Of a stretch of 62,461 bases of DNA, positions 31,067 to 41,321 are shown piece after piece. The notes under the pieces were generated by a model. It was not told where the DNA came from, made no database searches, and was given only the letters and a program-made list of their open reading frames with translations. This DNA is from Fidelibacterota bacterium (GTDB taxonomy: Bacteria; Fidelibacterota; Marinisomatia; SCGC-AAA003-L08; D37C17), in NCBI GenBank assembly GCA_002719095.1, contig PBGO01000023.1:5858-68318 (forward strand). The letters are read 5' to 3'. How positions within the stretch are numbered: position 1 is the stretch's first letter; every line of letters starts with the position of its first letter. The position numbers were made by a program, and so were the translations under genes.

Positions 31067-31291
31067 TTGAAGACTTTGGATTTACATGGTAAACGTCATG
31101 ACGAAGCTGAAATATTAACTTCTTACTTTATTGAGAATAATTTAGATTATTTACCAGTCGAAATAATTACAGGAAACTCAGTTAAGATGAAAGAAATAGT
31201 AAATCGAATTGCTAAAAAATACAGGTTGTCAACCGAACCCAAAAATTACTATAATCTTGGCTGTCTTATATTAAGGAGCACTTCAAATTAA
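31067..31291 (+). CDS. Small Smr-domain protein (TTG start)
   Basis: A 74-residue protein that is essentially one Smr domain. It has LDLHGKRHDEA at residues 4-14 and the loop ITGNSVKMKEIVNRI in place of the usual TGxGxxS segment. Stand-alone Smr proteins can act as nucleases on DNA or stalled-ribosome mRNA; the activity here is inferred from the family only. It starts at TTG 4 bases after hutI, with no in-frame ATG available upstream. Its stop overlaps the proposed ATT start of the next gene. Confidence 0.75.
   Translation: MKTLDLHGKRHDEAEILTSYFIENNLDYLPVEIITGNSVKMKEIVNRIAKKYRLSTEPKNYYNLGCLILRSTSN
31273..31278 (+). promoter_or_regulatory. Ribosome binding site before a non-standard ATT start
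   Basis: A perfect AAGGAG lies inside the 3' end of the Smr gene, 8 bases before an ATT codon (31287-31289) that overlaps the Smr stop as ATTAA. No ATG, GTG or TTG stands at a useful distance: the nearest in-frame ATG is 113 bases downstream. The position and the open frame behind it suggest that initiation occurs at ATT. Confidence 0.55.
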
Positions 31292-32174
31292 TTTTCTCAA
31301 AAAAATAGTAAATCCTTTTGCAATTATTAAAGCATTCATCTATCATCGAAATCAAAAGAAATATGCAAAATCAGCAAATGATCTTGAGTTAATGTTATAC
31401 TCAAAGATTATAGATAACGATATGTTACATTATGGTTATTTTAAAAATATAGATATTTCTTCTGATGAAATTTCCATTAAAGAATTTCAGAATGCTCAAA
31501 TGAATTATATTAAACTAATAATAAATCAAATTAAATCTAAAGAGAGTAAAATACTTGATGTTGGATGTGGAATGGGTGGTTTATCAAAAGTATTGAAAGA
31601 TAATAAATACGAAGTTGAATCAGTCACTCCTGATGACAATCAGTTTAAGTATATTACATTAAAATATCCTGATCTGGTAGTTCACCACAAAAAATTTGAA
31701 GACTTTAATTCAGAAAATAAATTTGATGTAATTATAAATTCTGAATCAATACAATATATCAATTTAGATACTGCATTTAAAATTTGTTCGAAAATTATAA
31801 ATGATGATGGAAGATGGATTATAGTAGATTATTTTAGAAAAAATGATGACGGAATTAATAAATCTGGCCATTTGCTTACAAACTTTCTTAACAAAGTTGA
31901 TAGATGTGGATGGAAAGTTACCTATTCTGAAGATATTACTCAGAATGTTTTGCCAACGCTAAAATTTGCTATGCTCGTGGTTGATAGATTTATCAAGCCA
32001 ATTGCTAGTTTTGCTAGTATAAAAATTAAGATTAAGCAAGCATGGTTATACTATCTTTTAAGAGAATTTAGGAATGGTATCAAGAATAAAGCAGAAAAAG
32101 AACTATCTTCTCTCGACCCAATAAAATTTAGCAGAGAAAAAAAATATATGCTATATGTGTTAGAGAAAAAATGA
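31287..32174 (+). CDS. SAM-dependent methyltransferase, probable ATT start
   Basis: Class I methyltransferase with motif I ILDVGCGMGG and the usual acidic strand-end motifs downstream, then a basic C-terminal region. It resembles the cyclopropane-fatty-acid-synthase / type 11 group, but the substrate is unknown. From the first standard start (ATG 31392) it would be 260 residues. The same frame is open upstream to 31275 and encodes protein-like sequence (KKIVNPFAIIKAF, then YHRNQKKYAKSAND). A perfect AAGGAG 8 bases before the ATT at 31287 supports a 295-residue form. It ends 4 bases from the convergent beta-helix gene. Confidence 0.75.
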   Translation: MNFLKKIVNPFAIIKAFIYHRNQKKYAKSANDLELMLYSKIIDNDMLHYGYFKNIDISSDEISIKEFQNAQMNYIKLIINQIKSKESKILDVGCGMGGLSKVLKDNKYEVESVTPDDNQFKYITLKYPDLVVHHKKFEDFNSENKFDVIINSESIQYINLDTAFKICSKIINDDGRWIIVDYFRKNDDGINKSGHLLTNFLNKVDRCGWKVTYSEDITQNVLPTLKFAMLVVDRFIKPIASFASIKIKIKQAWLYYLLREFRNGIKNKAEKELSSLDPIKFSREKKYMLYVLEKK

Positions 32175-32178
32175 ACGC

Positions 32179-33093
32179 TTAATTTTCTAATACAAGATTA
32201 ATTAAGTTCACAACGTCAAGAACATTTGTAGCACCATCAGAGTTTACATCTGAACAAGAGCAATCACTATTACTACCCAATATACAATTATTTATTACAA
32301 AAACTATATCTAGTATTGAAATAGTTGAATCCTGATTACAGTCACCTAAGAGAATATTGTAAAATATGTTAGCTCCGATATCTCTTATTGTTCCATCCAA
32401 ATCAAATAAATCTGGATTTCCTGCATCTATACAAGGCGAATCTGATAAGTACTGAAAGTTAAGATTATCTGTATCGACAAATAGAGGATCCTGGTAAACT
32501 AAATTTAAATCTGAATCGTCAAACACCCACGGTGTCCAAATATTTCCTCAGCCCGGGCAATTCTCCCAATAATCTCCTTCAAGATTGCCCCACGAGTTTG
32601 AATGATTAACTGTAACTTGTGGATTTTCAGTGATGATTCCCAATCCATAAGTTCTATTACTTATAAAGTTACAATTTTCAATTTCAACTTGCGTGTAATC
32701 AAAAGCTTTCAAGCCAATATCATTATTATAAAAATTACAGTTTGAAACTTTACCAAAAGCTTCTCCTGAAAAGCTTAGTCCGTAAGTATCTCCATTAATA
32801 ATATTGCAATATTCTATGTGAAGTGAAGAGAGGTAGTTACTATCAGAGTACAACCATATCCCTGTTTGATTATTTAAATCAATAATTGATCCTTGGCAAT
32901 TAATATATACGTCTCCTGAAAATATTCCAATACCTCCATAGTATATTTGGTCTTTTTCTAAAACAAGATATTTTTCGAATTCTCCATTTGGACCTGATTC
33001 ATTATACGCCTCTTGAAGTGTGTACGGAACAAGCATACTAATTAAAAGTAAAATAATCATAAGATAATTTAATTTTACATTTAGCATTTCCAT
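32179..33093 (-). pseudogene. Secreted beta-helix protein with dockerin-like end, split by in-frame TGA
   Basis: One open frame of 305 codons interrupted by TGA at 32548-32550. The upstream part (32548-33093) has a signal peptide (hydrophobic residues 11-25) and repeated short strands with Asn/Cys turns typical of right-handed parallel beta-helices (YCNIINGDTYGLSF, NCNFYNNDIGL). The downstream part (32179-32547) continues in the same frame with a DPLFVD and SPCIDAG segment, then two dockerin-like calcium loops (GDCNQDSTISILDIV and SDVNSDGATNVLDVV). It reads as a single cell-surface or secreted protein with a nonsense change. Sequencing error or recoding cannot be excluded; a small hairpin (32523-32535) lies just after the TGA. 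Confidence 0.7.
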
Positions 33094-39945: not shown

Positions 39946-40536
39946 ATGGTATTTAATATTTTATCTTTAATATTTTTTTCAATTTTGACTTTTAATTGTG
40001 GATCGAACAATTCAGATTTATCACCTGAGGCATCAAAGTCAATCATCAAAGGAGCCCCAGATTGGTATTTAAATACCCCAATAAAACAAGGTTTTATTAT
40101 TGTTCCATCAAGCGCAACAAGCCAGGATATGCAACTTGCAGTAAATAAAGCTACTTTGGATGCTGCAAATACTTTAGCAAGCATGATTAACTCTGATATG
40201 AATGCTTTATTAAAGCGAGTTAGAGAAGAGATAGGTACAGATGATGACTCTAGTTTAGTAGATACATTCTCGCAGGTTCAAGAACAAGTCGTTTCAACAT
40301 CAATAAACAACTACAATATATCTAAAAAACAAATTCTTAGAGAAAAAAATAATGATGGAAAAAATATTTTTAGGGCATACGTTCTCATTGAGTGGGATGA
40401 AAATGCAGCGGATGAAAAGATTTTAGAGCAGATTAAAAGTGATAAAGCACTTTATGATTTGATGAGAACCACTGAATTATATGATGAAATGTCTAATAAA
40501 GTAGAAAAATACAAAAAGAAATATCGTAACCAATAA
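39946..40536 (+). CDS. LPP20-like lipoprotein, short form
   Basis: A 196-residue lipoprotein with a hydrophobic signal and cysteine in FNCGSNNS (about residue 21). The LPP20-like domain starts PDWYLNTPIKQGFIIVPSS and includes LAVNKATLDAANTLASMI. The C-terminus is charged and probably helical (KVEKYKKKYRNQ). A GGGAGA site (39936-39941) precedes the ATG. Its TAA stop overlaps the proposed ATA start of the RlmB-like gene. Function unknown. Confidence 0.72.
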   Translation: MVFNILSLIFFSILTFNCGSNNSDLSPEASKSIIKGAPDWYLNTPIKQGFIIVPSSATSQDMQLAVNKATLDAANTLASMINSDMNALLKRVREEIGTDDDSSLVDTFSQVQEQVVSTSINNYNISKKQILREKNNDGKNIFRAYVLIEWDENAADEKILEQIKSDKALYDLMRTTELYDEMSNKVEKYKKKYRNQ

Positions 40537-41321
40537 AAAAAAGAACAAAAAAAAAAAATAGCTCTAATGTACAGAAAGTTCATAGAGTTTATGGCTATAA
40601 CAGCTCAGTAGCTGTCTTGCAATCATCCAAGTGTAATATACTTGAAATCTATATTGATTATAAATCAAAACATTACGAAAATTTAAAAAAAATAATATTT
40701 GATAATAATTTATCGGATAAAATAAAAAAATTTCAATCATACAAAAGCACTACGACTGACACTTTTTTTAAAAGATCTCAAGGAATAATAATAGTATTTA
40801 AATTTAATGGTGTGGTTAATTCCATATCTTCTTTTTTCAGTAGTAAAGATAAAGATGACTGTATTCTAATTTTAGATCAATTAGAAGATCCTCAGAATTT
40901 AGGCCAAATATTAAGAACAGCCGAATGTGCAGGAGTAAAAAAAATAATTCTTCCAATTAATAAATCCGTAAAGTTATCTGATTCTGTAATGCAAGTTAGT
41001 CAAGGAGCTTTTTGTAATCTTAATTTTTTCATTTGTAATAATCTAAGAAACACAATCCGAGTTTTAAAAGAAAACGACTTTTGGATTGTTGCTTTAGAAA
41101 ATACTGAGAAAAGTAAAAATTGGTATGAAATTGATTTATCAGGGAGGATTGGAATCATATTGGGAAGCGAAGGTAAAGGTGTTAGAAGGCTAACCTTAGA
41201 TGACTCAGATTTTATTGCAAAAATACCAATGATGGGGAAAATAAACTCCTTAAATGTCTCTGCAGCAGGTTCTACGATTTTATTTGAGAGACTAAGACAA
41301 ATAACACTTGTTGAAGATTAG
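40533..41321 (+). CDS. rlmB: SpoU/TrmH-family rRNA methyltransferase (RlmB-like), probable ATA start
   Basis: 2'-O-methyltransferase of the SPOUT knot class; RlmB methylates 23S rRNA. The catalytic core has LILDQLEDPQNLGQILRTAE, LGSEGKGVRRL and the C-terminal SLNVSAAGSTILFE. The first standard start (TTG 40617) would cut off part of the N-terminal substrate-binding domain, including HRVYGYNSSVAVL. The frame is open to an ATA at 40533 that overlaps the previous stop as ATAA. From there it gives 262 residues beginning with a lysine-rich run across a 12-A tract (40547-40558). Initiation at ATA, or a slip in the A tract, would explain this. Confidence 0.82.
   Translation: MKKRTKKKNSSNVQKVHRVYGYNSSVAVLQSSKCNILEIYIDYKSKHYENLKKIIFDNNLSDKIKKFQSYKSTTTDTFFKRSQGIIIVFKFNGVVNSISSFFSSKDKDDCILILDQLEDPQNLGQILRTAECAGVKKIILPINKSVKLSDSVMQVSQGAFCNLNFFICNNLRNTIRVLKENDFWIVALENTEKSKNWYEIDLSGRIGIILGSEGKGVRRLTLDDSDFIAKIPMMGKINSLNVSAAGSTILFERLRQITLVED

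Follow-up and report, generated by a model that had tools for sequence, protein, structure and literature searches.

Twelve genes of the Fidelibacterota genome studied here, infC among them, carry no ATG, GTG or TTG at their conserved N-terminus, and a near-cognate codon is found there instead, always close to the stop codon of an upstream open frame. The best explanation, and on balance a probable one, is that termination-reinitiation tolerates near-cognate codons and that AT-biased mutation has exposed this tolerance. Two of the genes, encoding a SAM-dependent methyltransferase and an RlmB-like protein, lie in the window, the whole stretch of 62,461 nucleotides that was analysed.

The methyltransferase gene (31287..32174, plus strand, 295 codons) was assigned from its translation, Pfam matches and homologues. 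Its product is a class I SAM-dependent methyltransferase of the CMAS or Methyltransf_11/23-like type, which contains the glycine-rich motif DVGCGMGG and exceeds the cut-offs of the Pfam models CMAS (36.0 bits) and Methyltransf_11 (31.8 bits). The gene is preceded by a listed ORF with a TTG start and a product of 74 aa (31067..31291, plus strand), to which the sequence-only reading had given the name Smr. The ORF and its stop are present as described, but the name holds only loosely, since the match to Pfam Smr (19.8 bits) is below the cut-off of 25.7; the ORF is called Smr-like here. The same reading had placed a ribosome-binding site eight bases in front of an ATT start fused to this stop, and each of these elements was recovered. 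The Shine-Dalgarno sequence AAGGAG (31273..31278, plus strand) is located within the Smr-like ORF, 8 nt from the putative start codon ATT (31287..31289, plus strand), and the last T of this codon also begins the TAA stop (31289-31291), which gives the junction ATTAA with an offset of -2. The hexamer is more than a chance occurrence: motif and spacing are enriched before ATG starts genome-wide, 50 of 931 such starts having AAGGAG no more than 22 nt away, compared with 2 of 922 codons picked at random inside genes.

The ATT frame opens at 31275, directly after an in-frame TAA (31272-31274), and runs on without ATG, GTG or TTG until the ATG at 31392..31394 (plus strand), which is codon 36, as had been read from the letters. 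This ATG does not mark the conserved N-terminus. Homologues of the methyltransferase are present in 87 of 150 genomes, and the closest and the distant ones alike start upstream of ATG 31392, whereas a uniform beginning at that position had been named beforehand as the result that would speak against the ATT start. The closest homologue, from the genome G018, shares 57% identity over residues 3-295; the alignment begins at residue 2-3, and its ATG and our ATT are no more than one codon apart, which places the ATG of the homologue 35-36 codons upstream of ATG 31392. About 28 distant homologues have their ATG near our residue 29, some 7 codons upstream of ATG 31392, a position at which the gene studied here has no canonical start. 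Judged by this homology, the N-terminal extension upstream of ATG 31392 is real protein.

The proposed ATA start of rlmB (40533..40535, plus strand) is, by the same kind of comparison, equally supported. The upstream gene (39946..40536, plus strand, from the ORF list and the sequence) ends in a TAA (40534-40536) which overlaps the ATA as ATAA, with an offset of -1; the earlier reading had likewise noted an ATA case at 40533. The rlmB-like gene itself (40533..41321, plus strand) encodes a putative 23S rRNA 2'-O-methyltransferase, whose score of 161.6 bits against TIGR00186 rRNA_methyl_3 is just above the cut-off of 160.15. No ATG, GTG or TTG occurs until codon 29. Where the 5' end of a family homologue can be read, ATG or GTG nearly always stands at the equivalent place, in front of the conserved [VI][YF]G motif; our genome has only ATA there. 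No good Shine-Dalgarno sequence stands in front of ATA 40533.

The remaining genes were found in a survey of the genome (1.455 Mb, 36 contigs, 30.8% GC), in which 1,245 ORFs were called with a codon model. Those with 90 or more codons and a first canonical start at least 13 codons into the open frame, 148 in all, were read without exception, and the recognition of genes among them relied on the analyst's judgement. For the named families, alignments to NCBIfam and Pfam models reach the proposed starts or come close to them. The infC gene has an ATA start at offset -1, which is of the known kind. The methyltransferase gene, yggS and namZ, the last with a signal-peptide-like N-terminus, share ATT at offset -2, all as ATTAA; rimM also has an ATTAA junction (offset -2), with ATT or ATA as an ambiguous start. 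The rlmB gene and a flippase gene have ATA at offset -1, overlapping the stop as ATAA or ATAG. Genes for an MlaF-like ATPase and a SufE-like protein are ambiguous between ATT and ATA, possibly at offset -1, and the sufE-like gene has a GTG 10-11 codons downstream. In lpxD (CTG, offset -5), panC (CTG, offset -11) and mutM (ATT, offset +13, with its own AGGAG) the start is near the stop and not on it. Most of the near-cognate starts in this genome have a weak Shine-Dalgarno sequence or none.

The cleanest of the putative starts in the survey is that of mutM. By established enzymology, the proline that follows the initiator methionine of MutM is the catalytic residue. The ATT stands directly before PELPEVET, and the first residue falls on the first position of the NCBIfam model fpg. 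Since this proline is the catalytic N-terminus, the position of the mutM start is fixed to the codon and can be nowhere else, and in 11 relatives the very codon that is ATT here is ATG or TTG. The panC start is likewise codon-exact against relatives, which carry ATG, TTG or GTG in place of CTG. In rimM, the TTG of the relatives is replaced by TAG, with ATT and ATA just downstream; in most genomes of the family (loci L153-L167) this TTG overlaps the upstream stop in a TTGAATAA-like arrangement.

Several candidates were rejected. Reading panC as an ATTAG junction was abandoned, as its relatives put the start at the CTG. The ORF at C9 minus 47598 (LTA-synthase-like) was dismissed as an ATA start, its conserved N-terminus being in another frame that is joined at an A9 run, and recF (C5 minus 31771) is frameshifted at an A-run; these two frameshift-split genes reflect either sequencing error or slippage-tolerant A-runs. 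The ORF at C23 minus 17359 was set aside because it is a redoxin gene with an in-frame TGA, probably for selenocysteine. Two further genes have no canonical start at the N-terminus, a multihaem cytochrome gene (C22 plus 4325), where ACG is possible, and an RND-type transporter gene (C18 minus 81904).

Each of the 12 starts has the stop of an upstream open frame on the same strand no more than 13 nt away, and each of these frames spans at least 79 codons. Overlap with the stop is probable for about 8 of the 11 genes other than infC, against 14.5-19% of canonical starts. This bears out in part the earlier proposal that such starts are joined to an upstream stop, which holds for the overlapping genes and not for mutM, lpxD and panC. 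For the nearness of all 11 to a stop p is about 3e-4, a value that takes no account of the part which the junction played in assigning the ambiguous codons. Such nearness also follows in part from the compactness of the genome: of 1035 genes with a clear canonical start, 47% begin no more than 12 nt from an upstream stop (14.5% with a -1 overlap). The genome-wide survey, which the earlier reading had suggested as a check, yielded further genes with near-cognate starts on or beside stops, but the tests of codon enrichment at junctions alone were weak (Fisher p = 0.17 for ATA and 0.046 for ATT). The link of the near-cognate starts to upstream stops is therefore likely, not proven.

The occurrence of these starts was compared among relatives. 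The rlmB, rimM, sufE, lpxD, mutM and panC genes have canonical starts in nearly all family members, so each case is probably recent in the lineage of our genome. The relative G003 contained no such gene among the 337 ORFs of a 384-kb sample, where about 3 would be expected at the rate of our genome. The exception is yggS, located downstream of gyrA, which has no ATG, GTG or TTG at its start in G001, G002 and G004; in G010 the only in-frame ATGs are far upstream, inside gyrA. In all four relatives the codon at the N-terminus is ATT, ATA or CTG. The infC gene starts with AUA across most of the family, which implies that AUA with a Shine-Dalgarno sequence is read there. From these comparisons, near-cognate starts appear to be a property of our genome that recurs for yggS in a few relatives, with no uniform lineage rule. 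The suggestion that the lineage as a whole allows near-cognate AUN starts at stop codons is accordingly narrowed: more such genes exist and yggS recurs, but most relatives have canonical starts, and CUG is used too, in lpxD and panC.

In the mechanism that we propose, the methyltransferase would start at ATT 31287, with the ordinary initiator tRNA supplying fMet. A ribosome that ends the Smr-like ORF would stop at the TAA sharing a base with the ATT, and AAGGAG would hold the terminated ribosome at the ATT, allowing reinitiation despite the third-position mismatch. The same arrangement may serve about 10 other non-infC genes of the genome, the post-termination ribosome being kept by proximity and sometimes by a Shine-Dalgarno sequence, with a mismatch of the codon in the third base (AUU, AUA) or in the first (CUG). 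A canonical start would be damaged when the junction is rearranged or when AT-biased mutation turns ATG into ATA or ATT; being coupled to the upstream stop, the gene would still be expressed at a tolerable and probably lower level. The proposed mutational bias may explain why ATA and ATT are found and ATC in none of the 11 starts. We infer from the sequences that initiation takes place at the near-cognate codons, that termination-reinitiation rescues it and that expression is lowered. Published work supports the steps of this scheme one by one. In Staphylococcus aureus, AUU and AUA starts with a strong Shine-Dalgarno sequence work at about 10-30% of AUG (PMC13009471). Ribosomes left on mRNA by inactivation of RRF start at non-canonical codons, and reinitiation depends on the Shine-Dalgarno sequence and IF3; in E. 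coli, reinitiation remains subject to IF3, which counts against a simple loss of discrimination (PMC2268962). A broader form of the proposal has about even chances of being correct: in this bacterium, and sporadically in others of its family, terminating ribosomes may routinely accept AUU, AUA or CUG at or beside the stop, and ATAA, ATAG and ATTAA may be working junctions of housekeeping genes.

A general relaxation of start selection, through weak or scarce IF3 or altered recycling, is the strongest of the other explanations, though we regard it as unlikely. The codons would then work anywhere, and nearness to stops would reflect compactness. The position of mutM, 13 nt past the stop with its own AGGAG, fits this explanation, as do the use of CUG, the many normal starts near stops and the cytochrome gene, which is separated from the closest gene upstream by about 70 nt. 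The probable overlap with the stop in about 8 of 11 genes and the nearness of all 11 argue against it, and no clear case far from a stop was found among the 148 ORFs read. Furthermore, this genome encodes a full-length IF3 that can be aligned over its length with solved IF3, and its initiator tRNA has an ordinary appearance, so a changed factor is not favoured. Consensus errors of the metagenome assembly, with ATG as the true codon, are far less probable. The assembly does contain 13.7 kb of scattered N and at least the two genes broken at A-runs. However, for every start that random substitution converts to ATA, ATT, ATC or CTG, about 51 in-frame stops should arise, so that 11 cases predict hundreds of broken genes, and the surveys turned up few in-frame TGA codons, the majority of which look like selenocysteine sites. 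Were the third base of the ATT in ATTAA a G, the upstream stop would be lost as well, so the error must also have created that stop; the gene upstream of rimM ends at a conserved place, and the yggS pattern repeats in independent assemblies. Least probable, by a little, are real starts at downstream ATG, GTG or TTG codons with dispensable upstream homology or decaying genes: the SAM-binding core retained after ATG 31392 and the nearby GTG of sufE would allow this, but in yggS, namZ and lpxD a canonical start follows only after 131, 155 and 76 codons, respectively, the N-termini missing from mutM and panC would be catalytic or highly conserved ones, and the reading frames are intact and coding-like throughout.

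To our knowledge, the bacterial AUU and AUA starts known so far are isolated and are thought to be regulatory. The infC gene, encoding IF3, starts with AUU, AUC or AUA and is autoregulated. The starts proposed here resemble this type where an AUN codon is combined with a strong Shine-Dalgarno sequence, and infC itself has AUA in most of the family. They differ in that the methyltransferase gene, rlmB, mutM, panC and the others have no known feedback role, and that most family members give these genes canonical starts. IF3 autoregulation does not apply to the gene at 31287, as its product is a SAM methyltransferase and not IF3. In S. aureus, the starts of cvfC1 (AUU), ccpN (AUA) and citZ (AUA) were demonstrated by Ribo-Ret and reporters, and the four such sites, infC included, were explained by extended Shine-Dalgarno pairing (PMC13009471). 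These are also AUU and AUA starts on ordinary genes; the ones proposed here amount to about 11 beyond infC, lie beside upstream stops and mostly have a weak Shine-Dalgarno sequence or none. Genes are also translationally coupled by termination-reinitiation at ATGA-type and TAATG junctions, according to the available portions of PMC6728339 and PMC12548453. There too the start overlaps the upstream stop, and ATAA, ATAG and ATTAA may be regarded as near-cognate counterparts of ATGA; those portions describe NTG junction starts, and AUU or AUA junctions were not found in them. The GTC start of Streptomyces sigR is similarly non-canonical, missed by gene callers and IF3-sensitive, but it concerns a single regulated gene and another codon, and the accessible part of the source reports no stop-start overlap (PMC5472188). 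If true, the roughly 11 near-cognate starts on unrelated housekeeping genes would be natural tests of whether reinitiating ribosomes are less strict in their inspection of the start codon. They would also form a class of starts that standard gene callers do not consider, so that such genes would be truncated or missed in streamlined, AT-rich lineages.

In-frame TGA codons were observed in thioredoxin-like proteins of our genome and of G003, about two residues before a cysteine, as in UxxC selenoproteins. The sites are C23 minus 17359, C2 minus (ATW-TGA-GGCY) and C20 plus (GKQG-TGA-SMC) in our genome, and L223:1589 and L233:2318 in G003. The window has a further in-frame TGA at 32548-32550 (minus strand) in a beta-helix/dockerin-type ORF, ENCPG*GNIWTPWVF being read in the same frame, which is either a nonsense mutation or a recoded codon. 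The contig pairs C6/C32, C26/C34, C28/C36 and C4/C35 hold near-identical genes, which suggests that the assembly contains redundant strain contigs.
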